Shown: piece by piece, positions 26,338 to 39,968 of the stretch | Layout: each line of letters opens with the position of its first letter | Numbering within the stretch: the first letter of the stretch is position 1 | From: an uncultured Eubacterium sp. | GTDB taxonomy: Bacteria; Bacillota; Clostridia; Lachnospirales; Lachnospiraceae | Direction: 5' to 3' | DNA length: 40,474 nt | Assembly: GCA_947385775.1 (NCBI GenBank) | Contig: CANDMI010000031.1 | Coordinates: 1-40,474 of the forward strand | The notes under the pieces: generated by a model | What the model was told of the DNA's origin: nothing | The model's database searches: none | Seen by the model: the letters and a program-made list of their open reading frames with translations, nothing else | Translations under genes and position numbers: made by a program

Positions 26338-26496
26338 TAGGGGGCGTATATTTATTTCTAAATTTAATTATATATAAAATATATAGAAATTAAAATAAAA
26401 TATAACAAATATGGATAAAATTGGATATTTATGCCTTATCGCATGATCAGGAAAAAAAGAATAGAAAAACCAGAAAACAAACAGAAAATTTTGTAT

Positions 26497-26511
26497 ACAT
26501 TTAATAAATGT
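26497..26511. promoter_or_regulatory. 15 bp palindrome upstream of the VWA gene
   Basis: ACATTTAATAAATGT (ACATTTA-A-TAAATGT) is a perfect dyad overlapping TATACAT/TTAATA sequences that could be a -10 region. It lies 68 nt before the start codon in a 240 nt AT-rich spacer and is a candidate operator. Confidence 0.4.
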
Positions 26512-26579
26512 GAAAACTGTTGTTTTTAATCAGGATTTACAAAAAAACAACTTTATTTTCAGGAAAAGGAGAAGATTGG

Positions 26580-27884
26580 ATGCCGCATATACAGACGCAG
26601 ACAGAGTGGGAAGTGGAGATGTCCTTAAAGGCATTGCGATTGATACGGGATGAGCTGTATGTGGATCTGCGTTTTTTTGGAGCCGCGTTATCGCAGCTGG
26701 AGCCAAAAGAGCATGGCGCGGTCCGCACTTTCGCAACTGACGGGGTATATTTATATTACAATCCGGGGCGGACGCTTTCTGTTTTTCGGGACAATTCAAA
26801 ATTTTTATGCCGCGCATTTTTGCATAGCGTGTTTCACTGTATCTTTTCCCATTTATGGATCGCGGGCAGCCGGAAACCGGAGCTTTGGGATATCGCATGC
26901 GATATTATGGTGGAATATACAATCGACCGGCTGGAAAAGCCCAGCGTTAAGCGCATATTGACATGGACGCGCAGGCAGCTGTACCAAAAGCTGGAGGAAG
27001 AAAATCGTAACATTTCCGCGGCGGTGATCTACCGCGCGCTTCAAAAGCTGCCAAAGGAGCAGGCTCTTTCATTGCAGATGGAATTTTTTACAGACGACCA
27101 TTCCTTTTGGCGTAAAAAAGATCAGCCGGGCGCGAAAAAAAGCGCCGCGCAGGCGAAATGGGAAAAGCTCACGAGGCAGGCAAGCATCCAGCAGGATCGG
27201 CTTTTAAAAGGAGAATCGGAAGCGTTACGGCAGTTGGACTTAAGGCTTCAGGCGGAAAAAAGCCGCAGGAGCTATCAGGATTTTTTAAAGAAGTTTACGC
27301 GCATTCGCGAAGAAATGCACTGTGATCCGGACGCTTTTGATCTTAATTATTATACCTATGGGCTGCGATTATATCAGAACATGCCGCTGATCGAGCCTTT
27401 GGAGACAAGGGAGGAGCGAAAGATCCAGGAATTTATCATCGTTTTGGATACCAGCGATTCTACCAGCGGGAATCTGATACGCGGGTTTTTAACGGAAACG
27501 TTTCGCATATTAAAACAGCAGGAGAATTTTTTTCATACGTGTAAGATACGTATCATACAGTCGGACAACCAGGTGCGTAAAGACCAGGAAATCACGGATT
27601 TAAGCCAGGCGGAGCGGTTTTTAAGCAAATTTGAGATCGCCGGGGGAGGCGGGACGGATTTTCGTCCGGCGTTTTCCTACGTGAACCGCCTGATAGAGCA
27701 GGGGAGCCTGTCAAAGCCGGATGGGTTGTTGTATTTTACGGACGGGAAGGGCATTTATCCGAAAAAACGACCTGTTTATCAAACCGCGTTTTTATTTTTG
27801 GAGGAATACGACGAAACGGCGGTTCCTCCATGGGCGATGCACATCAGGTTGGAGCCGGAGCAGTTAAGGGCAAAAGAAAAATAG
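26580..27884 (+). CDS. DUF2201 family protein (degenerate metallopeptidase plus VWA domain)
   Basis: 434 residues. The N-terminal part resembles the putative metallopeptidase domain of DUF2201 proteins, but the zinc motif HExxH reads HSVFH (in FLHSVFHCIFSHLW), so the catalytic glutamate is lost. A charged linker runs through about 190-255. The C-terminal part is a VWA domain with the metal-site start FIIVLDTSDSTSG near 297 (DxSxS) and GGGGTDFRPAF. I chose ATG26580 with AAGGAG (26566-26571), not ATG26520. The MoxR-type ATPase follows after 13 nt; ATPase-VWA pairs commonly act as chaperone-like remodelling systems. The substrate is unknown. Confidence 0.82.
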   Translation: MPHIQTQTEWEVEMSLKALRLIRDELYVDLRFFGAALSQLEPKEHGAVRTFATDGVYLYYNPGRTLSVFRDNSKFLCRAFLHSVFHCIFSHLWIAGSRKPELWDIACDIMVEYTIDRLEKPSVKRILTWTRRQLYQKLEEENRNISAAVIYRALQKLPKEQALSLQMEFFTDDHSFWRKKDQPGAKKSAAQAKWEKLTRQASIQQDRLLKGESEALRQLDLRLQAEKSRRSYQDFLKKFTRIREEMHCDPDAFDLNYYTYGLRLYQNMPLIEPLETREERKIQEFIIVLDTSDSTSGNLIRGFLTETFRILKQQENFFHTCKIRIIQSDNQVRKDQEITDLSQAERFLSKFEIAGGGGTDFRPAFSYVNRLIEQGSLSKPDGLLYFTDGKGIYPKKRPVYQTAFLFLEEYDETAVPPWAMHIRLEPEQLRAKEK

Positions 27885-27897
27885 AAAAGAGGGAGCC

Positions 27898-29388
27898 ATG
27901 AATATTCAAGAAGCGAAGAAGGAAATTAAAAATACAGTTAAGGCTTATTTAGCAAAGGATGAGACGGGGGCGTATCGGATCGCATCCGTCAACCAGCGGC
28001 CGATTTTATTAATGGGGCCTCCTGGGATTGGGAAAACCCAGATCATGGAGCAGGTCGCAAGGGAGTGTGAGATTGGGCTTGCGGCGTATACGATCACGCA
28101 CCATACAAGGCAGAGCGCCGTGGGGCTTCCTTTTATAAAGGAAGAAACGTTTGACGGGTGCGCCTGTTCGGTTACCAAATATACAATGAGTGAGATCATC
28201 GCGGGCATTTATGAAAAAATGGAGCTGACCGGATGCAGGGAAGGGATTTTATTTTTGGATGAGATTAACTGCGTATCGGAGACGTTAGCTCCGACCATGC
28301 TGCAATTTTTGCAGTATAAGACCTTTGGAGGGCATAAGATCCCGGAAGGCTGGATCATCGCGGCGGCGGGCAATCCTCCAGAGTACAATCGCTCGGTGCA
28401 TGATTTTGACATGGTGACGTTAGATCGAATGCGCTATATGAGCGTGGAGCCGGATTTACAGATATGGAAGGCGTACGCCAAAACCGTGGGGGTGCACAGC
28501 GCGATTACAAGCTACTTGGAGCTTCGGCCGAAAAATTTTTACCGGGTGGAAAATGATGTGGACGGCCTGCAATTTGTCACCGCAAGAGGCTGGGAGGATT
28601 TAAGCAGTCTTTTGCAGACGTACGAAGCGCTTGGCATTTCGGCGGGAGAGGAGGTTTTTCATGAATTTATCCATCATCCAGATGTGGCGCAGGACGCTTT
28701 TTCCTTTTATGACCTGTATCATAAGTACGAGGAGGATTATGGGATCACGGAAATCTTAGAAGGAAAGGTTCGGCAAAATGTATACAGCCGCATCGCGCAG
28801 GCGGAATTTGACGAGCGTTTGTGCGTAGTCAGCCAGCTTTCGGATGGCTTAGGGCAGATCTTGCGTCAGGCGGCGCAGGAAAAGGAGCGCGCTGACCTTT
28901 GGTATCTGTTTTTAAAGGATTTTCAAAATCTGCAAGATGGCAAGAAACAGCCGACGGATCTGTATCATGAGCTGGTAGGCCGATTGGAGGAAGGATACCG
29001 GAAAAAGAAGCAGGGAGGCGTGTATGCAAAGGAGCGTCTTAGAAATGAGAAATGGCTTTGGATGCAGCTGAAAAACACGCCGCCGGAAAAAAATATGGAC
29101 GGCAAGGAAGCGTTTGATTATGAGAAAAAGAATTTTGACGCGCAGCTTAAAAAATTAGAGCAGGCGGAGCTTTGCGCGGAATTTGCGGTGGAATACGCGT
29201 TTGATTTTATGGAGCAGGCGTTTTTGGACGGTCAGGAAATCGTTGTATTTGTCACGGACTTAACGCTGAACCAGGAAGCAGTCTCATTTTTTGCCAAGCA
29301 TCCTTGCAGGCGTTTTACCAAATATACCCAAAGCCTGCTGATTGGAAGCCGTAAGGAGCAGCTGCTTTTGGAGTTAGAGCGGGGCTGA
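27898..29388 (+). CDS. MoxR-type AAA+ ATPase
   Basis: 496 residues. The AAA+ module is at the N-terminus: Walker A GPPGIGKT near 39-46, Walker B GILFLDEIN near 116-124, and sensor-1 AAAGNPPEYN near 155-164. After the lid, about 250 residues of helical, charged sequence form a C-terminal domain that is longer than in typical MoxR proteins (about 330 residues). GAGGGAG precedes ATG27898. It is paired with the VWA gene immediately upstream and probably forms a two-component remodelling machine with it. There is no terminator before the CarD gene, but that gene has its own promoter. Confidence 0.88.
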   Translation: MNIQEAKKEIKNTVKAYLAKDETGAYRIASVNQRPILLMGPPGIGKTQIMEQVARECEIGLAAYTITHHTRQSAVGLPFIKEETFDGCACSVTKYTMSEIIAGIYEKMELTGCREGILFLDEINCVSETLAPTMLQFLQYKTFGGHKIPEGWIIAAAGNPPEYNRSVHDFDMVTLDRMRYMSVEPDLQIWKAYAKTVGVHSAITSYLELRPKNFYRVENDVDGLQFVTARGWEDLSSLLQTYEALGISAGEEVFHEFIHHPDVAQDAFSFYDLYHKYEEDYGITEILEGKVRQNVYSRIAQAEFDERLCVVSQLSDGLGQILRQAAQEKERADLWYLFLKDFQNLQDGKKQPTDLYHELVGRLEEGYRKKKQGGVYAKERLRNEKWLWMQLKNTPPEKNMDGKEAFDYEKKNFDAQLKKLEQAELCAEFAVEYAFDFMEQAFLDGQEIVVFVTDLTLNQEAVSFFAKHPCRRFTKYTQSLLIGSRKEQLLLELERG

Positions 29389-29474
29389 AAATCAGAAAAA
29401 AGCGGTGAAAATCAAATATTGTATATATTTTTTTGAAATTCATAGCAAAAAACAGGAAATTTGAATAATTTATG

Positions 29475-29504
29475 CTTACATTGCCAAAAATAACTTGGTA
29501 TAAT
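29475..29504 (+). promoter_or_regulatory. Promoter for the CarD-like gene
   Basis: CTTACA (29475-29480), an 18 bp spacer and TATAAT (29499-29504) with an upstream TGG that makes an extended -10. The start codon is 38 nt downstream. Confidence 0.7.
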
Positions 29505-29542
29505 AAATATGTGCAAAAATTTTTCAAGAAAGGCGGTATGCT

Positions 29543-30073
29543 ATGATTCAAAAAAACGATTTTGTTGTTTATGGCTGTAATGGCGTATGCACGGTAGGGG
29601 ACATTGGGCCGTTGGAAATCCCGGGCGTTCCAAAAGAGCGGGTTTATTATACGCTGATTCCATATTATACGAAAGACAGCCAGATATTTGTGCCGGCGGA
29701 CAGCACGAAAGCCGTGCTGCGTCCGGTCATTTCCAGGGACGAGTTTTTAAAGCTGATGGACGAGATCCCATCGATGGACGTGCTTTGGGTGGATGAGGAA
29801 AAACAGAGGGATTTTATATACAAAGAAACCCTTCGCAAAAGCAGCTGCTTTGGGCTGCTCCAGATTATGAAAACAGTGGAGCGGCGAAGGCAGGAGCGTA
29901 CCGCGAAGGGAAAGAAAATGACCGCTACGGATGAAAAATACGCGCATCTTGCGGAAAAAAATTTATTTGAGGAAGGGGCCATTGCCCTTGGCGTGGCGCC
30001 GGCGCAGGTCAAAGAGCAGGTGAGGGCGAGGCTTTTACATGCCATGGAGACACAGCCTGTGGAAATATCTTAA
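29543..30073 (+). CDS. CarD-like transcriptional regulator
   Basis: 176 residues. The N-terminal CarD/TRCF-type RNA-polymerase interaction domain spans about 1-60 (FVVYGCNGVCTVGDIGPLEIPG, YYTLIPYY, IFVPADS), followed by a basic helical domain (KTVERRRQERTAKGKK) that in CarD proteins contacts upstream promoter DNA. CarD proteins bind the RNAP beta subunit and tune open-complex stability. AAAGGCGG precedes ATG29543. It has its own promoter and terminator. It could instead belong to the broader CarD_CdnL_TRCF group without a defined role. Confidence 0.9.
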   Translation: MIQKNDFVVYGCNGVCTVGDIGPLEIPGVPKERVYYTLIPYYTKDSQIFVPADSTKAVLRPVISRDEFLKLMDEIPSMDVLWVDEEKQRDFIYKETLRKSSCFGLLQIMKTVERRRQERTAKGKKMTATDEKYAHLAEKNLFEEGAIALGVAPAQVKEQVRARLLHAMETQPVEIS

Positions 30074-30136
30074 CCGATCAAGGTCATAAAAAGTATTCAA
30101 AAATCCGTGTAAAAAGCGCCCTAAAATCCACATAAG

Positions 30137-30174
30137 AAAGCCAGCCGCGAAATCCGAAAGCAGCCGGCTTTTTT
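30137..30174. terminator. Terminator shared by the CarD-like gene and the 50-residue gene
   Basis: AAAGCC (30137-30142) pairs with GGCTTT, extended by an inner GC-rich pairing, with a T-run to 30174 on the plus strand. On the minus strand TTTCTT follows. It lies between convergent genes ending at 30073 and 30178. Confidence 0.75.
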
Positions 30175-30177
30175 GTT

Positions 30178-30330
30178 TTAGAGTAAAATTTTTGATTTTT
30201 GCTTCAAAAGCTTCGAACCGCTTATGATCAACAAAACGCCCGACACAAGCCCTGTCGTCAAGATACAGATTCCAAGCACAAGGCTGTATATGGCAGTGGA
30301 ATTTATCGTTCTGTATACTTTTTCATTCAT
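30178..30330 (-). CDS. Small membrane protein, 50 residues
   Basis: A short minus-strand gene: ATG at 30330, stop at 30178. The product begins MNEKVYRTINSTAIYSL, carries two closely spaced hydrophobic stretches with glycines (LGICILTTGLVSGVLLIISG) and ends in a basic tail (SKLLKQKSKILL). A perfect AGGAGGA (plus-strand 30338-30344) is spaced 7 nt from the start, and the shared terminator lies just past the stop codon. Similar short proteins occur in clostridia but I know of no function. The coding logic and ribosome site make it more likely real than not. Confidence 0.75.
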   Translation of the reverse strand: MNEKVYRTINSTAIYSLVLGICILTTGLVSGVLLIISGSKLLKQKSKILL

Positions 30331-30495
30331 GGAATAATCCTCCTATTACTTGCTTTTTGTTTATTTTAGCATATTGTTGTGAAAAGATACAGCAAAAATT
30401 TCTTTTTGTGAGAGATTAGTTACGGTGAAGTCAGTTACAGTGAAGTAGGAGCTGGCTTTTAAATACGATACGGAAAGCCTTTTTTTGGAAATCAT

Positions 30496-30524
30496 TTGCC
30501 TGTATGGGAGAACGTGTGTATAAT
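30496..30524 (+). promoter_or_regulatory. Sigma-A-type promoter for the DUF4317 gene
   Basis: TTGCCT (30496-30501), a 17 bp spacer and TATAAT (30519-30524). The transcript would start near 30531 and carry a leader of about 120 nt made mostly of repeats. Confidence 0.7.
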
Positions 30525-30529
30525 AGTAA

Positions 30530-30605
30530 GCGTATTTTAACAGCAAGCGTATTTTAATAAGCGTATTTTAATAGCGGGGGTATTTTAATAAACGTTTTTT
30601 AATAG
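30530..30605 (+). repeat. Short-period repeat in the DUF4317 leader
   Basis: GTATTTTAA recurs at 30532, 30549, 30563 and 30580, with a variant (GTTTTTTAA) at 30594. The spacing alternates 17, 14, 17, 14 nt. The array sits in the predicted 5' untranslated region. Confidence 0.8.
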
Positions 30606-30630
30606 TAAGCATAAGTATGCTTATAAGCAT
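30606..30630. promoter_or_regulatory. Overlapping palindromes just before the DUF4317 ribosome site
   Basis: TAAGCATA (30606-30613) is inverted as TATGCTTA (30616-30623), and ATGCTTATAAGCAT (30617-30630) is a perfect 14 bp palindrome sharing its right half. The two alternative pairings end 5 nt before AGGAGGG. They could be an RNA switch between two hairpins or an operator. Confidence 0.5.
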
Positions 30631-30650
30631 CATAGCAGGAGGGAAACGCT

Positions 30651-31799
30651 TTGAATAAAAAAGAAGTATTGGAATTAAAAAAGAGGATGAAAAAAGACAG
30701 CTGCACGTTTACGAGGATGTGCGGATGTTATGTAGATGGAGAGCGAAACCGCGTCACGTATTTAAACAAAACCTTTTTAAATTTAGAAGACGAGGAGCTT
30801 TTTAAATATTTGGAGATCGCCAAAAAAACCTTGTCCGGCACGCTTGGCGACCATTTGTTGGAGCTGGAATTTCCGTTAGAGCAAGAGGAAGCCGGGGGGA
30901 GGCAACAGTTTTTATTGGGGCTAAGGGAAAGCAAATTGAAAAATGAAGACCTGCTGGAGCGGTTTTACGACCTTGTGATTGAAAATTACGAAGCGGCAGG
31001 AAATTACCTAATCCTGATTTTCCATGACGCTTATGACGTGCCGGTTAAGACGAAGGACAATTTAAAGCTGGATGAATCCGAAGAGATCTACGAATATCTT
31101 TTGTGCGCCATATGCCCGGTCGCATTGACAAAGCCGGGGCTTGGGTATTTAGAGGATTCCAATGAGATCGGGCCAAGGGTTCGGGACTGGGTTGTAAACG
31201 CGCCGGATGCGGGGTTTTTGTTCCCGGCGTTTACAGGGCGCAGTACGGACATACATAGCACATTGTTTTACACTCGGAATCCAAAGCTGCCGCCTGACGC
31301 GCTGATGGAAGGGCTGCTTGGCTGTCAAAAAAAGCTGACCGCGACCGAGCAAAAGCAGGTTTTCCGCTCTGTTTTAGAGGATTCCCTTGGCGAAGAATGC
31401 AGCTATGAGACGATCAAGGAAATCCACGATAAAATCCAGGATAAAATCCAGGACAAAATGGCGCTTGAAGAGGAGACGGAGGAAGAGGAGCCGGAGCCGA
31501 TCGAGCTATCCAAAGAATCTATCAAGTCGATTTTAAAGGACAGCGGCGTATCGGAGGAAAAGTTACAGATAACCGACCAGGTATTTGAGGAAAGGGTAGG
31601 GGAAAGCAACCATCTTTACGCGGAAAACGTTGTGGACAAGCGTAAGTTTGAAGTGAAAACATACGACGTTGTATTGCATGTAAAACCGGAAAAAGCAGTA
31701 AAAATTAAATCACAAATTATCGATGGGCAAAAATATTTGGTCATTCCGATGGATGAAAATGAAAATGTCAACGTAAATGGGATTCAAACTACGGTTTAG
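30651..31799 (+). CDS. DUF4317 domain protein
   Basis: 382-residue soluble protein matching the uncharacterised DUF4317 family of Firmicutes. The N-terminus is MNKKEVLELKKRMKKDSCTF with RMCGCYVDGERN. A highly acidic low-complexity linker (EEETEEEEPEP) is preceded by two direct repeats of DKIQDKIQDKM near 270, and a C-terminal domain follows. TTG30651 is the start, supported by AGGAGGG (30636-30642) at 8 nt. It has its own promoter and a repeat-bearing leader. No function is known to me; it is not linked to an obvious pathway here. Confidence 0.85.
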   Translation: MNKKEVLELKKRMKKDSCTFTRMCGCYVDGERNRVTYLNKTFLNLEDEELFKYLEIAKKTLSGTLGDHLLELEFPLEQEEAGGRQQFLLGLRESKLKNEDLLERFYDLVIENYEAAGNYLILIFHDAYDVPVKTKDNLKLDESEEIYEYLLCAICPVALTKPGLGYLEDSNEIGPRVRDWVVNAPDAGFLFPAFTGRSTDIHSTLFYTRNPKLPPDALMEGLLGCQKKLTATEQKQVFRSVLEDSLGEECSYETIKEIHDKIQDKIQDKMALEEETEEEEPEPIELSKESIKSILKDSGVSEEKLQITDQVFEERVGESNHLYAENVVDKRKFEVKTYDVVLHVKPEKAVKIKSQIIDGQKYLVIPMDENENVNVNGIQTTV

Positions 31800-31823
31800 G
31801 GAAGATCGTTTGTGAATTTCTGA

Positions 31824-31868
31824 AAAAAGAACCGGGATTTCGGCAGGACGAAGTTCCGGTTCCTTTTA
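31824..31868 (+). terminator. Terminator after the DUF4317 gene
   Basis: GAACCGGGA pairs with TTCCGGTTC, flanked by A-rich sequence on the left and CCTTTTA on the right. The T-run is modest. Confidence 0.6.
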
Positions 31869-31871
31869 TGC

Positions 31872-31973
31872 GCAGGCCCGCAAATGGAAATTAGCTGCAA
31901 GAGCAGCACGCGGGCCGCGCGGCGAGTAGTGGAGGAAAAAATTTCCTCTATTCGATTGACTGCGCGGGCCTGC
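31872..31973. repeat. Closed structured element between DUF4317 and parB
   Basis: GCAGGCCCGC (31872-31881) is perfectly inverted at 31964-31973 and closes a 102 nt segment. Inside are hairpins AGCTGC-AAG-AGCAGC and GAGGAAA-AAA-TTTCCTC and a GC-rich block. Both closing arms are followed by AAATGGAA, so the flanks are also direct repeats. Past it, CGGTTTTT (32034-32041)/AAAAACCG (32050-32057) forms a hairpin near the parB end. No gene is seen in 31800-32085. Confidence 0.65.
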
Positions 31974-32085
31974 AAATGGAATTTTGAATTTTCAGACATT
32001 CGCATAAAATAATTCGCGCGCACTAAAATTTGACGGTTTTTTATTCGTGAAAAACCGCCTGTATTATAAATATTTTTCTGTAAAA

Positions 32086-33288
32086 TTACATTTCGATTTC
32101 ATTATACAAGTCGATAATCCGATTTTTTAAGACCTCTAACCGGATTTTTAAATCTGCATCTGATTTTAAAAGCTTCTTATGGTTCTTTAAAACCGCAAAA
32201 TTTGTTTCTAATAATTGCAAAGTCTGCTCAGTTTTCGCAAATTGTGTGATGCGCTTTAGTTCGTCGCTGGAAACAGAGGTATTGCGCACTTCAAGTTCCT
32301 TTTGCTGCTGCTTCATTTTCTTTAATTGGCTTTGCAGTCGTTGCTTTTCATGCTCCGCTTTTTCTTTTGCGTCGGAAACATACTTAAGCTCTTCTTTTAA
32401 GTCGTGCTCCGGGAGCTGGGATTTTGAATCTTGAAGCTGTTGAATCCGCCGCTCTAATGCCGCGATGTGTCTGTCCCTTTCATCTAACTTTTCACGCGTG
32501 CGCGCAAGCTCTTCCTGGCTTCGTTTGTTTTCCAGCTCTTTTTCCTGGGAGATTTTTTTTATGCTTTCCAGCTCGCTTGGGTCGATGCTGCCTTTGGCGC
32601 TTAACAGCTCGACGATCTTTAATTGCGCCCACTCATCTAAACGGCTGAATTTGTTTGCATCCTCTAAACTGATGCCGTTTTGATTTAACAGGTCGCTTAA
32701 TTCCGGTATCAGCTTTTCAGCGTTTACGTATTTGATCGCCTGCCTTTGGGACATATTGAGCTGTTTTGCGATTTCTTTTGTGATATTTGTAATCTCCCCG
32801 GTTATTTTTTTTGTTTCGTATAATTCTTTTAACCTGCGGATTTCCCAGCGTTTTTCCTCGATGGTGGTCTCCCTGGTGTCGTGGTTTGCGGAGATCAGCA
32901 TGATCTCTTCGTCTATTTCGGATATGCTCGATTTTTCCACCTTGCAGGGAATGCCGGTGGGGAACAGCTCTTTGTATACGTTTTCATCCATAATGTCGAT
33001 CGCATGAAAACGACGTTCCCCGGAGACGATCCGGTACATATTTTTTTCTACGTCAAAAATGACAGAAAGGTTGTGGCGCAATCCGTTTACAGTTATGGAT
33101 TCACTTAACGCTTCAATATTATCCTGGGAATAATTTTTATTTTTTTCATTCGGGATGATCTTTTCCTTCGGGATAAATTGAAAATTATAGTTTGAGGTCG
33201 CCCTCATCTGTTTTAATTTATCGCCGCCTTTTGTGTCAAGGATGCCCGACGCCGTTTGCCCCGGCTTAAATACTTTCTTTGCGCCCAT
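32086..33288 (-). CDS. parB: ParB-like partition protein with a long coiled coil
   Basis: 400 residues. The ParB/Srx N-terminal domain covers about 35-125, with the nucleotide/partner motif GERRFHA at 90-96. A helix-turn-helix region follows at about 155-210 (ITKEIAKQLNMSQRQAIKYV). Residues about 240-350 are a highly charged coiled coil in place of the usual short linker, then a basic C-terminal segment. It is longer than chromosomal Spo0J (about 280-300). The start codon abuts the parA stop codon, so translation is coupled. It should load on parS-like sites and work with ParA. The length and coiled coil are more like plasmid or accessory partition proteins. Confidence 0.85.
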   Translation of the reverse strand: MGAKKVFKPGQTASGILDTKGGDKLKQMRATSNYNFQFIPKEKIIPNEKNKNYSQDNIEALSESITVNGLRHNLSVIFDVEKNMYRIVSGERRFHAIDIMDENVYKELFPTGIPCKVEKSSISEIDEEIMLISANHDTRETTIEEKRWEIRRLKELYETKKITGEITNITKEIAKQLNMSQRQAIKYVNAEKLIPELSDLLNQNGISLEDANKFSRLDEWAQLKIVELLSAKGSIDPSELESIKKISQEKELENKRSQEELARTREKLDERDRHIAALERRIQQLQDSKSQLPEHDLKEELKYVSDAKEKAEHEKQRLQSQLKKMKQQQKELEVRNTSVSSDELKRITQFAKTEQTLQLLETNFAVLKNHKKLLKSDADLKIRLEVLKNRIIDLYNEIEM

Positions 33289-34113
33289 TTACTTTTTCCC
33301 TTTCATGTAATGGATTAGTTTTTTATAATGGTCGTTATCCAATAGGCCAAGATAATTCACAAGCTCGATATAATCCTGGGCGGCGGTGCAGCGTTTATCG
33401 TACGTCAGCAATGGCACGAAGGATGTGTTGCTTTGGTTTACCGCGTCTGCCTGGCGGATGGATACAGGGATAAATTTATCTTCAAACATTTCCTCGTAGC
33501 TTTCAAACATTTGTTTAAACAAGTTAGTACGATTGGAAACCCGGGTCATGTAAATGCCGGTAAAGTTAATCGACAGGGAATAGGTTTCGTTTAACTGCTG
33601 GATCGTTTCGATTAGATCCATAAGCCCATCGTAAGAAAAATTATCTGCGTTGATAGGCGTTAAAACCCCGTTGCTTGCGCATAGCGAACAATTGGACAGG
33701 GCTGACTTAAACGGTGAGTTATCAATAATAATGTAATCGTAGTCCTCTTTGATGTATTCTAAATTGTTTCGAAACGTCAGTTCAACAGGATAATTTTTGC
33801 TTGCTTCGTGTATTTTATAAATCAGCTCGTAGTAATCCCTGCTTGCTGAAATCATGGAGATGCCAGGATGAGAGGTTGGCACAATAAATTCTTCCACAGA
33901 CGATTTCTGCGGCTGTTTTACGCAAAACAAGTGTTCTATATTTATATCCGGATTTTCGTTTTGACCATACATTTTCGTCGTATTCATTTGAGGGTCCAGA
34001 TCGATGATTAAAACTTCATAACCGGAAATAGCTAATATCTGTGCAATGGTAATTACAGAGGTTGATTTTGCAACTCCTCCCTTAGAATTATTAATGCTGA
34101 TCGTCTCGGCCAT
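33289..34113 (-). CDS. parA: ParA-type partition ATPase
   Basis: 274 residues. A deviant Walker A lies at the N-terminus (SKGGVAKST, K11-S17, with both signature lysines), Walker A' is VLIIDLDPQMN near 34-44, and Walker B DYIIIDNSPF near 125-134. There is no N-terminal HTH extension, so DNA-binding for autoregulation would have to come from ParB. It is the first gene of the parAB operon, with AGGAGGA upstream and a consensus promoter with a dyad at 34139-34167. parB follows without a gap. Chromosomal Soj and plasmid ParA cannot be separated from sequence alone. Confidence 0.9.
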   Translation of the reverse strand: MAETISINNSKGGVAKSTSVITIAQILAISGYEVLIIDLDPQMNTTKMYGQNENPDINIEHLFCVKQPQKSSVEEFIVPTSHPGISMISASRDYYELIYKIHEASKNYPVELTFRNNLEYIKEDYDYIIIDNSPFKSALSNCSLCASNGVLTPINADNFSYDGLMDLIETIQQLNETYSLSINFTGIYMTRVSNRTNLFKQMFESYEEMFEDKFIPVSIRQADAVNQSNTSFVPLLTYDKRCTAAQDYIELVNYLGLLDNDHYKKLIHYMKGKK

Positions 34114-34138
34114 TTTATCCTCCTAGTTTTTTGTTTCC

Positions 34139-34167
34139 ATTATACTTTCTTTGCGTATATTTCGCAA
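34139..34167 (-). promoter_or_regulatory. parAB promoter with dyad operator
   Basis: On the minus strand TTGCGA (plus coordinates 34162-34167), a 17 bp spacer and TATAAT (34139-34144). The -35 box and spacer contain the dyad TTGCG-7 nt-CGCAA (34151-34167). A repressor bound there would block RNA polymerase, as in autoregulated partition operons. Confidence 0.75.
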
Positions 34168-34187
34168 GTTTTTTTAAAAAATTTGGC

Positions 34188-34270
34188 AAAAGGGAGTTAC
34201 AGCTCAGTACGGGGCATTGTATTTACAGCAGAATTTGTATGAAAAAAGCGGCTGTAATAAAAGGGAGTTA
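34188..34270. repeat. Direct repeat of AAAGGGAGTTAC upstream of parA
   Basis: AAAGGGAGTTAC occurs at 34188-34199 and again at 34259-34270, each followed by a related G/C-containing stretch (GCTCAGTACGGGG, GCTACAGTTTAGTCCAGGGG). Confidence 0.5.
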
Positions 34271-34347
34271 CGCAGGAGCTACAGTTTAGTCCAGGGGGTT
34301 CGAGTACGATTGTATGAAGCGCTTCGTCATGGATGCGCGGAAGAAAG

Positions 34348-34560
34348 TGATGGGACAGAGTATGCGCCAGGGCAAGTTGATGGGACAGAATGTACGCCGA
34401 GAAGAGTGAATGGATAGAATATATGCGGGGGCAAGTGATTGGACAGAATATAAGCGAGGAGAGTGAATGGATAGAAAATGTGCTGGGGAGAGTGAATAGA
34501 TAGAAAATGTGCCCGGGGCGTGTGAATGGATAGAATATGTGTCAGGGGATGTGTGTGGAC
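34348..34560. repeat. Seven-copy 28-30 nt repeat array upstream of parAB
   Basis: The core TGAATGGATAGA (variants TGATGGGACAGA, TGATTGGACAGA) begins at 34348, 34378, 34407, 34436, 34464, 34493 and 34523. Each core is followed by AATATGTGC and a G-rich stretch. The spacing is 30, 29, 29, 28, 29 and 30 nt. The units are contiguous with no unique spacers, so this is not a CRISPR array. It is a candidate iteron or centromere array for the adjacent partition genes. Confidence 0.8.
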
Positions 34561-34770
34561 ATCATGCTGGCTTTTAGTGTGATTAGGATTTTAGATTTTG
34601 GATTTAAAATAATAGATTAAAAAAGTTATGGAACGGTAAGGCTGGTGAAGGGCTTCGTTTTGGGTATGACCGGTAGGGGAGTGTAGATTTAAACGCATCG
34701 GAGAGATGAAGGTTGCTTGTGGGCTTTAGGGAGATTTATAAAAAGTGATAAGGGTGTGTAAAGGAAAGAA

Positions 34771-34821
34771 GGGGGAGATAACTGGAAGGGGGAGATAACT
34801 GGAAGGGGGAGATAACTGGAA
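34771..34821 (+). repeat. Three perfect copies of a 17 nt G-rich unit
   Basis: GGGGGAGATAACTGGAA repeats exactly at 34771, 34788 and 34805 and decays after 34822 (GGGGAGA...). Four runs of four or five G at 17 nt spacing could form a long-loop quadruplex. Confidence 0.92.
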
Positions 34822-35372
34822 GGGGAGAAGAAAAGGAGATGACTGGAAGATGAGATGAGAGGAAAGGAAGGGAAAAGGAAAGAGGAAAGAAATGCAAGTG
34901 GATAAATATATAGAGATTTGATATGAAATAGAAACAGGAATCAGAAAAGCGTTTCATTTGGGTGTTATGAAAATATGGAGGAGAGGTGAAAAATACGCGA
35001 GGAGGAAATGCTTCAGTTGTATAAAGAAAGTTATATAAAGTTGAAATTTATCTTGAAAGTGGGTAGGAAGAAAGAAAAGGCGGAAAGCAAGAGAGTAGGA
35101 GACAGGAAAGAGGATGAGACGTGAAAAGCATGAGACGTGGAAACGGGAAGGGATGTGAAAAGCAGGAGATGAAAGATAGGAGAAAAAAATTAGAGAAAGG
35201 AAAGTAGAAGAAGGAGAAAAGAGAAAGGAGGAATATTCATAAGGGGAGAGAATATATGGAAAAAATTTAGTTGTATAAAGAATAGAAAGAAAAAGTAAGA
35301 TGGAAAAGAAAAAGAAGAGCTTCATTTAAGATGGATAGAAAGAAAATTTAATGCAATTTATAATAATTTCTT

Positions 35373-35507
35373 ATGCAGGAAGGAGATTTACAGATAAATA
35401 TACCCCTGTTATTTGCAATAAGAATTGGCTATTTTGTGGAATCAGACCAGTTTCACGTGTCATTGACCGGCGATAAAAGGGATTTAATCAAAGCTTTGCG
35501 AAAGTAG
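35373..35507 (+). CDS. Possible 44-residue ORF or gene remnant
   Basis: ATG35373 to TAG35507 encodes a sequence that looks more protein-like than its surroundings (contains IRIGYFVESDQFHVSLTG, then DKRDLIKALRK). The ribosome-site-like GGAAGGAG lies inside the frame, 9 nt before an ATA codon, so this may be a gene that has lost its start, or a fragment. I do not recognise it. It includes GTTTCACGTG (35450-35459), which matches the left ten bases of a parS site. Confidence 0.25.
   Translation: MQEGDLQINIPLLFAIRIGYFVESDQFHVSLTGDKRDLIKALRK
35450..35459. promoter_or_regulatory. Half parS-like site
   Basis: GTTTCACGTG equals ten contiguous bases of the bacterial parS consensus TGTTTCACGTGAAACA; the right half here (TCATT) does not match. 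It lies 1.3 kb upstream of parA. Isolated, imperfect sites may bind ParB weakly, or this may be chance. Confidence 0.3.
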
Positions 35508-35764
35508 GCGGCAATTATTCGCTATTTTCTGCGCCTGATATAGGATTTTGTTTGAAAATTGTCTCAAATTGATATTAAATATAGGTCAGAAGCTCTTCAT
35601 TCTGTTAATAGGTTCAAAAACAGAGGAAATTTAATCGTGCATCAAGTAGTGAAAAATCAATTTGAAGGAACGCGATAAATAAGATTGGTCTAAAGTTTTA
35701 TGTAAATAGTGAAAAGAGAGGGTAATAAAAAGCAAGAAAGTAGGAGACAGAAGCGGTAAAAATA

Positions 35765-35945
35765 TAAAACGAGATAAATGTAAAATCAAAATTAGAGGAA
35801 AAGAAGGAAGAACTTCACTAAATTTGCAGGCAATCATACTAAAAACAAAATTAAGATTTTATGAAAAAAGAAAAGAATTATAAAAATATGCATAGTGAGA
35901 TAAAACAAAATCAAAATTATAGGAACAAAAGAAGAGCTTCTTTAT
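35765..35945. repeat. Direct repeat of 124 nt spacing with GAAGNNCTTC motifs
   Basis: A segment with AAAATCAAAATTA and ending in GAAGAACTTC (35807-35816) is repeated 124 nt later, ending in GAAGAGCTTC (35931-35940). The same GAAGRRCTTC motif also occurs at 35314-35323 and 36345-36354, and GAAGCTCTTC at 35589. It is a dispersed motif specific to this non-coding region. Confidence 0.6.
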
Positions 35946-35970
35946 AAAAATACCGAGAAATAACACACAA

Positions 35971-36070
35971 AAAAATATGTAAAACAAAATATGTAAAGCA
36001 AAAAAATATATTTAAACGAAAAATATGTAAAACAAAAAACTATGTTTAAACGAAAAATATGAAAAATAAA
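35971..36070. repeat. AT-rich 14-17 nt repeat
   Basis: Variants of ATATGTAAAACAAA begin at 35975, 35989, 36006, 36023, 36040 and 36057 (spacing 14, 17, 17, 17, 17). The segment is almost entirely A and T. It could serve as a DNA-unwinding element next to the DnaA-box array 0.4 kb further on. Confidence 0.7.
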
Positions 36071-36441
36071 GAATTGACAAGCAAAAAGATCAGATTTAGG
36101 AAGATCGGTTAACGGAAAAGTGAATCGCTTCATAAGAGCAGGCATAGAGAAATATTTTCATTCACGAAATGTCAAGTCAGTAAATATCGTTATTTCAAGT
36201 AAGAAAAAAGAGGATTGGCAATTATGTATATGCATATGGGTTAGCTCCATTCGCCTATAAAATATATGAAAAGCTTCAAACAATTATCATGATTATTTTA
36301 TATATATACCAAAAAGTAAATTGTATCGTCCAAAAAATACAAGAGAAGAACTTCACTGGACATTTTTTAAACACGCTTTAAAATCACATGATTATATTTC
36401 ATTGTGAAACGAAACCGATGGTGTTTTGTAATGTATGCAAA

Positions 36442-36681
36442 TATGGATCAGTGATATTTTACGAAATATGAAAATGTGGATAAGTGAAGCTTCGAAAAAC
36501 ATGAAAATGTGGATAAGTAAAGTTTCTAGAAATATAAAAATGTGGATAAGTAAAGCTTCTGAAAATATGTAAATATGAATGGTTGAAGCTTCCTGAAATT
36601 TTCGAATGTGGATAAGTAATGTTTTCTTAAATATAAAAATGTGGATAAGTGAAGTGTCTAGAAAAATGCAAATGTGGATAA
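36442..36681 (-). repeat. 33 nt iteron array carrying six perfect DnaA boxes
   Basis: Eight units start at 36442, 36475, 36508, 36541, 36574, 36607, 36640 and 36673, with exactly 33 nt between each. Units 2, 3, 4, 6, 7 and 8 begin with TGTGGATAA, the reverse complement of the consensus DnaA box TTATCCACA. Units 1 (TATGGATCA) and 5 (TATGAATGG) are degenerate. After the box most units have GTRAAGYTTC and an A/T-rich stretch. All boxes point the same way, and 33 nt is close to three helical turns. No spacers, so not CRISPR. Confidence 0.9.
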
Positions 36682-36778
36682 AATGTGAATTCATATATTT
36701 ACGATAGAGGGGGAGTGGAGAGCTTTTTATTTTTATGATTTTATTACAGTTATACAAAAAATATAGTTGAAATATATC

Positions 36779-36798
36779 CAGGTGAATTACTTCACCTG
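36779..36798. promoter_or_regulatory. Palindrome beside the DnaA-box array
   Basis: CAGGTGAA (36779-36786) is inverted as TTCACCTG (36791-36798) with a 4 nt centre. It lies 98 nt past the last DnaA box and is a candidate protein-binding dyad or RNA hairpin. Confidence 0.45.
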
Positions 36799-37006
36799 AG
36801 AAAAAATATAGCATATACGGTTAGACTGTTTTATAAGCAGATAAAGTAAAACGGTGTCATCTTGCCAAAGCGGATAAACAGTTAAAGAAAATTTGTTCTG
36901 TTTTAAGGAAAGAGGAAAAGCAATTTATGACTAGGAGTTTTTGTATAGGGCATATTTTAATGTCATATAAAATTGTCAGAATATTTCGAAGGATGCAGAT
37001 GTATGT

Positions 37007-37142
37007 TTTGGATTTGGCAAAGGTTATACAAAATCGCTGTCAGCTGTCTGCAAATTTTCATATGAAAATCTATTTTTGGATTTGGCAGAGGTTATACAAA
37101 ATCGCTGTCAGCTGTCTGCAAATTTTCATATGAAAATCTATA
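37007..37142. repeat. 68 bp tandem duplication with a 16 bp palindrome
   Basis: The segments 37007-37074 and 37075-37142 are adjacent near-identical copies (one internal difference, AAAGG versus AGAGG, then divergence at the end). Each contains GCTGTCAGCTGTC and the perfect palindrome ATTTTCATATGAAAAT. Confidence 0.88.
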
Positions 37143-37148
37143 TTTGAT

Positions 37149-37460
37149 ACTGTTACAGGTTCCCTTCCGTTTCAGTAAAGCTGAAGGTTGAACGGGAGTA
37201 ACAGTTCGGATATGGCATTACAACTATAGCGAACCGAACGCTGAGGGATGGAGGACTGGTTTTCATAAGTTAAACACAATAAAACTTTAGCCATTAATCG
37301 AATCTCAAACTCAAATAATTTTGATTGTCTGCCTTACTTGCCTATATTCGAGTAAACTCGATACAGGCAAATGCGTCATACTATCTTTTTCATTTCTAAT
37401 TAGGAAGAAAAAGCTATTGCCTGCCTGATAGAAATTGCGTACAGTGATTTCTATTTCTAG
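37149..37460 (+). ncRNA. Candidate structured RNA region
   Basis: Successive hairpins suggest a folded RNA. ACTGTTAC (37149-37156) pairs with GTAACAGT (37198-37205), enclosing CCGTT/AACGG and TTCAG-5 nt-CTGAA. GTTCGG (37204-37209) pairs with CCGAAC (37234-37239). TCGAG-TAAA-CTCGA lies inside TTGCCT/AGGCAA near 37338-37372. CTTTTTC (37385-37391) pairs with GAAAAAG (37407-37413), and ATAGAAAT (37428-37435) with ATTTCTAT (37447-37454). It matches no RNA family I can recall (not tmRNA, 6S, RNase P or SRP RNA by their landmarks), and transcription is not shown. No coding frame is apparent. Confidence 0.4.
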
Positions 37461-37480
37461 TAGCGCTTGTGAAAAACAGC

Positions 37481-37714
37481 CTGGAGAGGGAACTGTCCGA
37501 CCTGGCTGGGGCGTATGGAGGAATGTTTAGAAGTTCTTCGTATTCTGCTTCATAAACAGGCGGCGAAGCCGTAAGCGGCTCCTTTCGCTTCTGGCGCAGC
37601 CAGTGCGATTGAGGAGTCGCGTCTGTCCGGTAGTGAAAACGTAAAATCAGAATACGTAGAACTTCTTACATTCTGGAATGGCCCAAGCCAGGCCGGGCAG
37701 CTTCCCTCTCCAAG
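37481..37714. repeat. Giant imperfect hairpin element 1
   Basis: The outer arms 37481-37512 and 37681-37714 are imperfect reverse complements of about 32 nt (GGAGAGGGAA...CCTGGCT). Inner arms 37521-37547 and 37648-37674 are also inverted and contain AGAAGTTCT and TATTCTG. The 100 nt apex is GC-rich with its own small hairpins (GCCGTAAGCGGC). It shares the core ATGTWAGAAGTTCTW and ATTCTG with element 2 at 40200. No open frame is present; it could be a MITE-like element or an RNA. Confidence 0.8.
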
Positions 37715-37765
37715 CGTCCTCTATCTCCAAGCGTCCCTCTATCTCTAAGCGTCCTCCTATTCCAA
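37711..37765. repeat. 17-18 nt repeat abutting giant hairpin 1
   Basis: AAGCGTCC with flanking CTATCTC repeats at 37712, 37729 and 37747, with a further AAGCG at 37797. It starts inside the end of the hairpin arm, as if the arm end had been amplified. Confidence 0.7.
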
Positions 37766-37836
37766 TCTCCAAATACCTCTATTTCTGAACTGCTCCAAGC
37801 GCCCCACACTTTTTACAATAAATATAAAAAAAGCTA

Positions 37837-37865
37837 TTGAAATCCTTATTCGAATGTGCTACAAT
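37837..37865 (+). promoter_or_regulatory. Promoter of the tRNA-Ala gene
   Basis: TTGAAA (37837-37842), a 17 bp spacer and TACAAT (37860-37865), 55 nt upstream of the mature tRNA 5' end. Confidence 0.75.
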
Positions 37866-37920
37866 AGTCCCATCGGTTGATTGATGGACATCAAAGCGGA
37901 TATCAATACCAAAGAAACGA

Positions 37921-37993
37921 GGGGCATTAGCGCAGTTGGGAGCGCGTAACATTCGCATTGTTAAGGCCACGGGTTCGAATCCCGTATGCTCCA
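37921..37993 (+). tRNA. tRNA-Ala (anticodon CGC)
   Basis: 73 nt cloverleaf: acceptor GGGGCAT/ATGCTCC with the G3-U70 pair that marks alanine tRNAs, D-stem GCGC/GCGC, anticodon stem TAACA/TGTTA with loop TTCGCAT (anticodon CGC), 5 nt variable loop AGGCC, T-stem ACGGG/CCCGT with TTCGAAT, and discriminator A. No CCA is encoded; TTTTT follows. It decodes GCG, which is abundant in genes of this window. A single-gene unit with its own promoter. Confidence 0.96.
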
Positions 37994-38050
37994 TTTTTAT
38001 CCAGTGAATTGTTTTTTCAAAGACCAACAGCAAATAGCATTTATACTTTC

Positions 38051-38100
38051 AAAACATCCCGTATTTTAGCGTGCAGCGCACATAAAATATGGGATGTTTT
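38051..38100. terminator. Strong terminator downstream of tRNA-Ala
   Basis: AAAACATCCCGTATTTTA pairs with TAAAATATGGGATGTTTT (one G-U pair), with an inner GTGC/GCAC, and ends in a T-run at 38097-38100. With A- and T-runs on both sides it may act in either direction. Confidence 0.85.
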
Positions 38101-38171
38101 AAACTTATGGAAAAAGTTTCAAAATTAAAATATGATAAAAAAAGCACATTTAGAAAGGAAAACAAACAAAA

Positions 38172-39968
38172 ATGGAAAATCTTGCAAAGCATCGGTTAAA
38201 AAAGCTTCGAAAGCTTATGAAGGAAGAAAAGATAGACGCGTATCTGGTTTTAAGCAGCGATTTTCATAATTCGGAATATGTCAGCGGGCATTTTAAATGC
38301 CGGGAGTTTTTGACCGGGTTTACAGGCTCGGCGGGAAGCGCGGCAGTCTTACAGGAAGAGGCGGTTTTATGGACGGATGGGCGGTATTTTTTGCAGGCGG
38401 AAAGTGAGCTGGCTGGAAGCGGGATCGAATTGTATCGTGAGGGAGAGGAAGGCGTAGAAGAGCTTGAGCAATATCTTGTAAGCCATCTGCCGAAGGGTGC
38501 GACATTAGGCGTGGATGGAAGGACGCTTAGCGTGGAAAGATACCGTGGGATAAAAAAGAAGCTGAAACAAAAGCAGATATCCATCCGCTTGGATTGTGAC
38601 CTCGTCGGCAGTATATGGAAAGACAGGTCCCAAATGCCCTGCGAGCCGGTATGGGGGCTGGAGCTTTCTTATGCGGGCAGATCAAGAAAGGAAAAGCTTG
38701 CGGATATCAGAAAGCAGTTAGAGGAAAAAGCCGATATGACCTTTATTTCTGCCCTGGAGGATATCGCCTGGGTTTTAAATATAAGGGGGAATGACGTGGA
38801 TTGCACGCCGGTCGCGCTGGGTTTTTTAGCGGTCGATATGGAGCGCGCGGTATGGTTTGTGCAGCCCAAGGCTGTGGGAGACGCTCTAAGGGAAGAATTA
38901 CTGGCGGATGGCGTGCTTATAAAAGATTACTGGGAGGCGTATGGATTTTTTTGCGAAAAATATAAAGGAAAGAGCGTATATCTGGATTTTTATAAGACCA
39001 ATACGATGATCTATAAAAAAGCAAAGCGGTTTATGCATGTGAAAAAGGGCAGGAATTTAACGATGCTGCCAAAAGCGACGAAAAATGAGACGGAAATTCG
39101 CAATGTAAAAAAGGCGCATATGAAAGACGCGGTTGCATGCGTAAAGTTTATTTACTGGCTGAAAACCCATGTTTTGGAAGAGCGGATCACAGAAATTTCC
39201 GCGGCGGAAAAATTAGAAGGATTCCGCCAGGGGCAGGAGCATTATATCGGGCCGAGCTTTCATACAATCGTAGGCTATGCGCAGCATGGGGCGATCGTGC
39301 ATTATTCCGCTACGGAGCAAACGAATGTGGCGTTAGAGCCTAAAAATTTTGTGCTGGTCGATTCTGGCGGGCATTATCTGGAAGGAACGACGGATATTAC
39401 AAGGACAATCGCACTTGGGGAGCTGGCATATGAGCAAAAGTATCATTATACGCTTGTCCTAAAAGGGCATATCAGGCTTGCGATGGCAAAATTTAAGTAT
39501 GGATGCAGCGGGATGAACTTAGATAGCATTGCAAGGCAGCCTTTATGGGAGCAGGAGCTGGATTTCAACCATGGAACCGGGCATGGGGTCGGATATCTGT
39601 TAAGCGTCCACGAGCCGCCAAACAGCTTTCGAAGCCGTATGACCAAAAGCATGGAGGAATGCGAAAAGCTGGAGCCTGGCATGATCACGTCAAATGAACC
39701 GGGCATATATTTGACAGGAGAGTACGGCGTTCGGATAGAAAATTTAATGGTGAGTAAACAAATTGGAGAAAGCTGCTTTGGAAAGTTTATGGGGTTTGAC
39801 ACGCTTACCCTTGTGCCGTATGAAAGAGACGCGATCTTAAAAGAGGAGCTGTCTGAAAAGGAAAGGGAATGGCTGAACGCGTATCATGAGAAGGTTTTTC
39901 GGACAATTGGGCCATGCCTGGACGAAAAGGAGCGCGACTGGTTAAAGGACGCGACGGAAAAGCTGTAA
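38172..39968 (+). CDS. Xaa-Pro aminopeptidase (M24B family)
   Basis: Removes N-terminal residues preceding proline. The 598-residue length matches the long, three-domain form (two creatinase-like N-terminal domains, then a pita-bread catalytic domain from about residue 315). The dinuclear metal ligands are all present: D397 (LVDSGGHY), D408 (TTDITR), H471 (HGTGHGVG), E509 (SNEPGIY) and E523 (RIEN). No signal peptide, so cytoplasmic. AGAAAGGA upstream of ATG38172 is the ribosome site. It is a single gene after the tRNA terminator. Confidence 0.95.
   Translation: MENLAKHRLKKLRKLMKEEKIDAYLVLSSDFHNSEYVSGHFKCREFLTGFTGSAGSAAVLQEEAVLWTDGRYFLQAESELAGSGIELYREGEEGVEELEQYLVSHLPKGATLGVDGRTLSVERYRGIKKKLKQKQISIRLDCDLVGSIWKDRSQMPCEPVWGLELSYAGRSRKEKLADIRKQLEEKADMTFISALEDIAWVLNIRGNDVDCTPVALGFLAVDMERAVWFVQPKAVGDALREELLADGVLIKDYWEAYGFFCEKYKGKSVYLDFYKTNTMIYKKAKRFMHVKKGRNLTMLPKATKNETEIRNVKKAHMKDAVACVKFIYWLKTHVLEERITEISAAEKLEGFRQGQEHYIGPSFHTIVGYAQHGAIVHYSATEQTNVALEPKNFVLVDSGGHYLEGTTDITRTIALGELAYEQKYHYTLVLKGHIRLAMAKFKYGCSGMNLDSIARQPLWEQELDFNHGTGHGVGYLLSVHEPPNSFRSRMTKSMEECEKLEPGMITSNEPGIYLTGEYGVRIENLMVSKQIGESCFGKFMGFDTLTLVPYERDAILKEELSEKEREWLNAYHEKVFRTIGPCLDEKERDWLKDATEKL

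Follow-up and report, generated by a model that had tools for sequence, protein, structure and literature searches.

Why should the genome of an uncultured Eubacterium species carry, in a largely noncoding stretch beside the partition genes parA and parB, a series of DnaA boxes repeated at a fixed interval of 33 nt? The locus lies in what is here termed the window, namely the whole 40,474-nucleotide stretch that was analysed, which constitutes contig C31 of an assembly (designated G000) of 152 contigs and 96% completeness. The original prediction offered several roles for these boxes, including a plasmid-type or secondary origin, a DnaA-titration locus, and a DnaA-controlled centromere.

Geometry and Statistics of the DnaA-Box Array

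The array is situated between parA and a pepP-like gene, and the features that define its position are the following:

36442..36681, minus strand: tandem array with a period of 33 nt and eight slots, six holding exact DnaA boxes and two degenerate
34114..38171, no strand: AT-rich, largely noncoding parA-pepP gap, the candidate centromere region of the replicon's ParABS system
33289..34113, minus strand: parA, an AAA_31/ParA ATPase of 274 aa, 87-88% identical to congeners (AAA_31, E 8.5e-39)
32086..33288, minus strand: parB, encoding 400 aa with a ParB_N domain and a coiled coil, at 76-78% identity to five congeners
38172..39968, plus strand: pepP-like M24 peptidase, the right border of the gap in congeners where assembled

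Examination of the array bore out the description of eight slots spaced at 33 nt, six of which carry error-free boxes in one orientation. Specifically, the exact 9-mer TTATCCACA starts on the minus strand at positions 36475, 36508, 36541, 36607, 36640, and 36673, each start being 33 or 66 nt from the next, such that all six copies fall within 207 bp (36475-36681), while slot 1 (36442; TATGGATCA) and slot 5 (36574; TATGAATGG) are degenerate, matching the box at 7/9 and 5/9 positions, respectively. A 33-nt period at 36434-36681 is also called by Tandem Repeats Finder, and the distance from the start of parA (34113) to the array is 2.33 kb, in agreement with the approximately 2.3 kb initially reported. 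Slot 8 retains its box within a flank that is mostly unlike those of the other units (7-12 of the 24 other columns in common), and the array is thus best described as seven tandem units followed by a terminal box. The proposal that the boxes are three helical turns apart and share one face of the DNA holds only roughly: 33 bp corresponds to 3.14 turns at 10.5 bp per turn, such that successive boxes rotate by about 50 degrees.

Matches to the box with no more than one mismatch number 19 across the whole window, as compared to 8.3 in shuffled sequence. When the parA-pepP gap minus the array is modelled as an order-1 Markov chain, only 0.041 exact boxes are expected per 4,058 bp, and the array thus exceeds chance; since tandem copies are not independent events, it is best described as one box that arose at P of about 0.04 and was then amplified. 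The box does not vary among the six intact slots, whose other columns agree at 60%. When columns are permuted over all eight slots, with the terminal box counted as a unit, the box columns are more conserved than the remainder (P 0.010); when only the seven true units are considered, the box window ranks 5th of 33 (P 0.096). Selection maintaining the boxes is accordingly weakly supported (P 0.01-0.10). Additional tandem arrays are present in the same gap at 34345-34541, 34768-34825, 35967-36070, and 37006-37146, their types being a 29-nt repeat, a purine-rich 17-nt repeat, an AT-rich 17/34-nt repeat, and a 68-nt duplication of 97% identity; the gaps of congeners contain tandem arrays that are short and weaker only.

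Conservation of the phase in relatives, which the original prediction had suggested looking for, was not observed: a pair of boxes at 33-nt spacing occurs in 0 of 12 congener assemblies, and conservation of the array is thus ruled out for the congeners searched. The same pattern is found in 4 of the 61 genomes searched, G000 counted among them. Similarly, the exact box is absent from eight other gap sequences, comprising those of six congeners (the G004 gap being represented twice and that of G011 in part) and one stretch from G020, a genome of another genus. In a scan of IMG/VR, 17 viral contigs (L122-L138) were found to carry at least three exact DnaA boxes at 33-nt steps, which indicates that the phase by itself is not unique; because the scan required a 33-nt phase, it is no measure of how unusual such a phase may be. 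The viral arrays are mostly denser than that of the window, mixing steps of 11, 12, 21, and 33 nt and reaching 22 boxes in one orientation (L123), while L133 presents just three boxes at 33-nt steps with none between.

The Host DnaA Box and Tests for an Origin

Within the G000 assembly, TTATCCACA occurs exactly 95 times, 6 of these in the array (a reversed-pattern control is found 4 times). The array is the densest cluster of exact boxes in the assembly, and the second densest place is the dnaA region on contig C61, where 3 boxes fall within 90 bp and 2 within 24 bp: three copies lie upstream of dnaA and two between dnaA and a dnaN-like gene. Here and below, genes without a family hit (rnpA, dnaN, murC, dnaD-like, dus, MATE, and others) bear the names of what we take them to be from their sequences. 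The presence of five copies of TTATCCACA flanking dnaA identifies it as the DnaA box of this host, as had been assumed for the array 9-mer. Organization of the boxes around dnaA in two clusters resembles the layout described for B. subtilis (PMC4447404), and TTATNCACA is the DnaA-box consensus given in the same source (PMC4447404). A further pair of abutting exact boxes is found at 102295-102312 of contig C1 (L051, 4296-4313), immediately before a DnaD-like and DnaC/DnaI-like gene pair; a DnaA-family match at this site falls in the DnaC/DnaI-like gene.

Several characteristics commonly sought at an origin are absent from the array. Firstly, no GC-skew switch is observed across it, the skew being positive on either side; the two dips in skew within the window (4-7 kb and 32-34 kb) fall where genes lie on the minus strand. 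Secondly, no DnaA-trio, here a run of at least five [TA]A[GA] triplets, starts between 36200 and 36950 on either strand. Thirdly, neither dnaA nor dnaN is located beside the array. Together these data make an active bidirectional origin unlikely, and the suggestion that the array serves as an active secondary or plasmid-type origin is unsupported. A role as the main chromosomal origin is ruled out by the location of dnaA and its own boxes on C61 and by the lack of a skew switch.

The Partition Locus and its Candidate Centromere

The ParB protein encoded in the window matches ParB_N with an E value of 4.9e-06, its score of 26.9 bits being just above the cut-off (26.3). Close relatives are found in 6 of 12 congeners at 76-78% identity, with the frameshifted copy of G004 reaching 80% over its first 248 residues; more distant relatives are found in G020 (56%) and on a 627-kb plasmid of L. 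eligens (55%), and no match suggestive of a phage origin was found among phages or viral contigs. Both ParA and ParB appear to be under purifying selection (pN 0.06-0.14, with synonymous sites saturated).

In the five congeners for which both sides are assembled, the parA-pepP gap is likewise AT-rich and spans 2.6-4.7 kb. In G011 the contig stops within the gap, and the surroundings of parA in G020 yielded no pepP. Not every gap is devoid of reading frames that begin with ATG: G005 contains three, of 153, 110, and 93 aa, and G002 one of 83 aa, while none of at least 80 aa is present in the gaps of G009, G003, or G004, or in the 1.1-kb part from G011.

From k-mers common to these gaps, an 18-bp palindrome, ARGTGAAGYRCTTCAYYT, was traced. 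A search of 14 whole genomes for its strict 16-bp core returned 21 distinct places (27 rows when strands are taken apart, with six places being the two assembled ends of G004 contig C6), and 21/21 of these lie in a parA-pepP gap or, in the case of G011, in the continuation of the gap, which is found at one end of the pepP-bearing contig C63. The strict palindrome is thus present in 6/6 congeners possessing a close ParB and in 0/6 of those without, and the reversed control yields one match. The strict core has no match in G000 or G020. A matrix built from 34 congener sites (training range 18.2-29.5 bits) was also applied to the window, in which the gap contains eight sites of at least 6 bits where 0.23 are expected (100 simulations) and the other 34 kb to the left of the gap contains one. 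Of the eight, one is strong, falling in the training range, and seven are weak (8.5-15.5 bits):

36780..36797, no strand: strong parS-like 18-bp palindrome AGGTGAATTACTTCACCT, 23.1 bits
36341..36358, no strand: degenerate parS-like palindrome AAGAGAAGAACTTCACTG, 12.8 bits
34643..34660, no strand: degenerate parS-like palindrome, 15.5 bits
35310..35327, no strand: degenerate parS-like palindrome, 14.4 bits
36118..36135, no strand: degenerate parS-like palindrome, 10.9 bits
35001, 34312, and 35803, no strand: weaker parS-like palindromes located by the matrix

The weak sites look decayed. The helix-turn-helix region of ParB is nearly identical between the window and the congeners. The presence of these predicted parS-like palindromes agrees with the earlier suggestion of a centromere beside parAB, but the further notion that this centromere is controlled by DnaA lacks evidence, as the candidate parS is an 18-bp palindrome and a different motif from the DnaA box.

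The canonical parS sequence, TGTTYCACGTGRAACA, occurs exactly in G000 on C61 only, at positions 3411 and 4884. Its confinement to C61 rules it out as the centromere of the window ParAB, which accordingly looks like a second partition system. An isolated half-site of the canonical parS, GTTTCACGTG, is found inside the gap at 35450-35459.

Chromid-Like Circles in Congeners

Comparison of gene content revealed that 26 of 31 window genes are located on one contig each in four congeners (57.0-65.4 kb), and that the gene orders of these four contigs are circular permutations of each other. The contigs concerned are C3 of G002 (57,514 bp, cut between parB and rep), C4 of G003 (57,026 bp, cut between the counterparts of the genes at window positions 25222 and 23907), C28 of G005 (63,129 bp, cut between those of the genes at 12309 and 13804), and C6 of G004, which is E. 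plexicaudatum ASF492 (NZ_AQFT02000006.1; pieces L047, L048, and L069-L071). In the last of these, positions 1-12,370 recur at 65,367-77,782 with 97-99% identity, a terminal redundancy of 12.4 kb that points to a circular molecule of about 65.4 kb. The contigs of G002, G003, G005, and G009 show no exact terminal overlap; the circularity of G002, G003, and G005 is hence deduced from permutation, and the true circles may be longer than their contigs. At E 1e-20, the four circles lack a match to each of the five window genes located at 3101-7135. Contig C50 of G009 carries two of the five and additionally links pepP, by way of gltX and dus, to the gene at window position 268.

In congeners, a gene encoding a Rep_3 initiator is positioned between DUF4317 and parB; in G003 the product is 428 aa in length and matches both Rep3_N (E 1.3e-20) and Rep3_C. 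Among 14 genomes searched, strong matches to this Rep were obtained in G002, G003, G004 (as frameshifted pieces), G005, and G011, and a weak match in G010; 8 of the 14 gave no match, G000 and G009 included, the contig of G009 ending at this point. The interval between parB and rep further contains arrays of 31-34-nt repeats, with 10.2 copies in G002, 8.0 in G004, and 10.6 in G005; G011 and G003 possess 2-3 copies only of this period, and G003 has a separate array based on 17 nt on the other side of rep. The circle contigs encode both this Rep_3 initiator and ParAB, and carry the 18-bp palindromes.

In addition to plasmid-type maintenance genes, these contigs carry core genes. At E 1e-60 or better, gltX is found nowhere but on the replicon contig in G002, G003, G004, G005, and G009, and in G011 it is on C63, the contig carrying pepP and gap palindromes; G000 has a 46% relative on C1. 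The sole close gene for glutamyl-tRNA synthetase in the congeners, including the model mouse-gut strain ASF492, thus seems to reside on a circle of 57-65 kb. Genes encoding Lgt, AroB, and PncB are likewise on the replicon contigs in G002-G005, the exception being a 29% AroB-like match on C1 of G004. Two of the properties by which chromids are recognized, namely plasmid-type replication and partition and core genes without a close chromosomal copy, are therefore found in the congener circles. Another such property, similarity in GC content, is not found in ASF492, where a 38.5-kb part of the circle has 37.3% GC versus 43.5-44.7% in three chromosome pieces, and "chromid-like" is accordingly the right word; for G002, G003, and G005, parts of the circle were each compared with a single 20-kb piece of a different contig and proved 1-2 points lower in GC.

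In G010, the same cargo is found on contig C18 (L120:14773-15972, 19146-19922) in the company of another Rep_3 and another ParA, and a Rep 81% identical to this Rep_3 is encoded on the 238-kb contig C4 of ASF492. Such an association indicates that replication modules change, and suggests that module swapping occurs among the congeners. Among the matches listed for G000 (8 of 9) to a query that includes the Rep of G010, none falls in the Rep part.

The Window Block: Undetected Initiator and Probable Integration

The relationship of the window to these circles is defined by three features:

268..31799, no strand: block collinear with the congener circles, as established by gene comparison
31800..32085, no strand: DUF4317-parB interval of 286 bp, in which neither the Rep_3 gene nor the repeats that congeners have there were found
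37921..37993, plus strand: tRNA-Ala(CGC) in the gap, between the array and pepP, a possible mark of integration

The block encodes a radical SAM protein, nrdD, pncB, a ppk2-type gene, aroB, lgt, MBOAT, MCP, VWA/MoxR, CarD-like, and DUF4317 genes. With the congener Rep as query, 0 matches were obtained in G000, a result to be read in light of the 96% completeness of the assembly, from which a Rep could be missing. No iteron-like repeats are present among the tandem repeats of the window, and no iteron core was detected in it by a pattern search that also missed the repeats of G003 itself. The portrayal of the locus as plasmid-type is thus upheld in that it is plasmid-related, but the type of origin used by its relatives, a Rep_3 gene with nearby repeats, was not found here.

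The window ends offer no proof of circularity, being dispersed repeats with many genomic copies and without exact mutual overlap: a TwoAYGGAY RNA (RF01731) at 40241-40395 and another family at 1-219, with 88 rows of matches between them, self-matches included. This RNA and the tRNA are the only Rfam matches in the window. Evidence of a junction is instead provided by contig C93 of G000, which ends in a repeat 96% like the window start, a dispersed repeat that is present on more than ten other contigs. C93 carries PTS-like (81%) and CDF (72%) genes which, in congeners, shortly precede the gene at window position 268; the HD and sigma-like genes that intervene in congeners are absent from C93. 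The left part of C93 encodes a hydrolase that resides on a contig without replicon genes in 8 of the 9 congeners searched (C1 in ASF492), and an FtsX-like gene whose counterpart is on C1 of ASF492 (6.35 Mb), the only one of the contigs with chromosome-type genes that is plainly chromosomal. C93 therefore runs from a chromosome-type hydrolase, through the replicon-type PTS-like and CDF genes, to the repeat that also starts the window, with adjacency of the two contigs deduced from gene order and a dispersed repeat rather than from exact overlap. No tRNA was found in C93 or in 24 pieces from relatives (23 from congeners and one from G020). Together the junction of chromosome-type and replicon-type genes and the tRNA gene in the gap make integration of the block into the chromosome probable, though far from assured. 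The alternative is that chromosomal genes were captured by a still separate circle, and the apparent purifying selection on ParA and ParB fits a still-partitioned replicon as well.

Proposed History and Competing Explanations

Our preferred reading, to which a probability of about 0.42 is assigned when taken as a whole, is that the window descends from a circular secondary replicon of 57-65 kb that is still separate in several congeners. Judging from its anatomy, the ancestral replicon would have replicated from a Rep_3 origin and been partitioned by ParAB acting at scattered 18-bp palindromic parS sites. The assembly of the window species yielded no Rep_3 gene, the majority of its parS-like sites are degenerate, and the block has most likely become integrated in the chromosome, as C93 and the tRNA gene suggest. 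In the putative old centromere region, a unit of 33 nt with a single consensus DnaA box has been amplified, which among the congeners searched is seen here only. DnaA would be expected to bind the six perfect boxes, and the role of the resulting array is most likely that of an accessory DnaA-binding cluster, possibly a sink for DnaA or else a local regulator, rather than that of an active origin.

A second reading, which we consider a serious possibility, is that of a neutral tandem repeat, in which slippage in a noncoding gap prone to repeats multiplied a 33-nt unit holding one box by chance, the result being without function. Such a history would readily accommodate the unrelated 29-nt, 17-nt, 34-nt, and 68-nt arrays in the same gap, the absence of the array from congeners, the loss of the box in 2/8 slots, and a box-column conservation that falls short of significance on the seven true units. 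It fits less well with the expectation of only 0.041 for a single exact box in the gap, with the retention of all nine bases in 6/8 slots that differ from one another at about 40% of positions elsewhere, and with the exact identity of the array 9-mer to the oriC box of the host.

A replicon maintained by DnaA alone outside the chromosome would compete with oriC. This counts against a third and unlikely reading, namely that the window is still a separate circle which, having lost Rep_3, switched initiators and now replicates from the DnaA-box array beside parAB. Points in its favor include the failure to find a congener-type Rep in G000 or an iteron core in the window, the apparent maintenance of ParAB by purifying selection, the presence of six exact boxes in the array as compared to five around dnaA, the resemblance of the array phase to the 31-34-nt repeats of congeners, and the example of G010, in which the cargo has changed its replication module; these are opposed by the missing skew switch and DnaA-trio-like run, by the chromosome-type genes at the C93 junction, and by the chance that another initiator lies on another contig of G000. 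That the array replaced the 31-34-nt Rep repeats, producing a small second replicon driven by DnaA or, if integrated, a latent second oriC, is similarly improbable. Were such a capture by DnaA true, the second replicon would share its initiator with the main chromosome.

Far less probable is a ParB-linked element, in which the units would form a degenerate ParB-loading array, some with AAGTGAAG half-sites, and the resemblance to DnaA boxes would be secondary. Although AAGTGAAG directly overlaps the box in units 2 and 7 and the array is flanked by the parS-like palindromes at 36341 and 36780, the second half-site of unit 2 is 2 bp out of register, no position of the array ranks among the top 15 scores that the parS matrix gives in the window, and the near-identical helix-turn-helix is shared with congeners whose gaps contain the 18-bp palindrome. 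Finally, a coding repeat, in which a minus-strand open frame of 140 aa (36392-36814) would encode a repeat protein, is scarcely credible and not favored, for while 33 nt equals 11 codons, the frame is open, and the third codon position is the most variable over all columns (0.21, 0.25, 0.34), the frame has no family match and codon positions outside the box vary almost alike (0.29, 0.30, 0.34).

Significance and Comparison with Known Systems

Extra-oriC clusters of DnaA boxes, Rep_3 plasmids, ParABS loci, and chromids are each known kinds of element. A search of open-licence PubMed Central returned no published report of boxes arrayed at 33 nt in one orientation within a former centromere, nor, among partly listed matches in the same collection, of a 57-65 kb circle in the genus of ASF492. 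The apparent circle of ASF492 stands beside a genome paper whose accessible portions describe 6 contigs and no evidence of plasmids (PMC9600240). The window species seems to represent the end of this arrangement, with the initiator gone, the centromere decaying, and boxes for the host DnaA amplified, and the system thereby opens to direct testing the way in which a secondary replicon is taken up, and whether DnaA boxes favor or impede that process.

Clusters of DnaA boxes outside oriC include those bound in vivo in B. subtilis, as well as datA and DARS of E. coli. As in these clusters, the window array comprises several consensus boxes in noncoding DNA far from dnaA; unlike them, it has a strict 33-nt phase and a single orientation, is not seen in congeners, and is located inside a plasmid-derived centromere region. 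The viral arrays described above share its 33-nt steps, though most are denser and of mixed step.

With respect to replication, the congeners resemble iteron plasmids of the Rep_3 (RepE/RepM) type in possessing a Rep3_N plus Rep3_C initiator and nearby 31-34-nt repeats, whereas neither a Rep_3 gene nor iterons were detected in the window. The inferred integration in the window species has a parallel in the fused V. cholerae strains NSCV1 and NSCV2, in which, as described in the available text, ori2, rctB, and parAB are intact (PMC6284228), unlike the window with its undetected Rep and iterons.

In being secondary and circular, with plasmid-type maintenance and core genes, the congener circles are similar to the chromids of Lachnospiraceae, namely BPc2 (302 kb; PMC2914790), BhuII (91.8 kb, called smallest in its paper; PMC5716241), and PxyII (88.9 kb, presented in 2020 as the smallest chromid; PMC7523725). 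At 57-65 kb the congener contigs are smaller than these three and also than the D. shibae chromid (72 kb; PMC4373377); pYEE4 of Paracoccus yeei is another small one (PMC6209633). Relatives of DUF4317 are encoded on large plasmids of Agathobacter rectalis (NZ_CP143948.1), L. eligens (NC_012780.1), and Butyrivibrio proteoclasticus (NC_014389.1). The 626,744-bp plasmid of L. eligens ATCC 27750 is about ten times larger than the congener circles, and its 15 exact DnaA boxes are scattered rather than arrayed, but it encodes relatives of ParA (64%), ParB (55%), DUF4317 (45%), GltX (45%), and Lgt (47%), and this shared set of genes suggests that the replicon family may be old in Lachnospiraceae.
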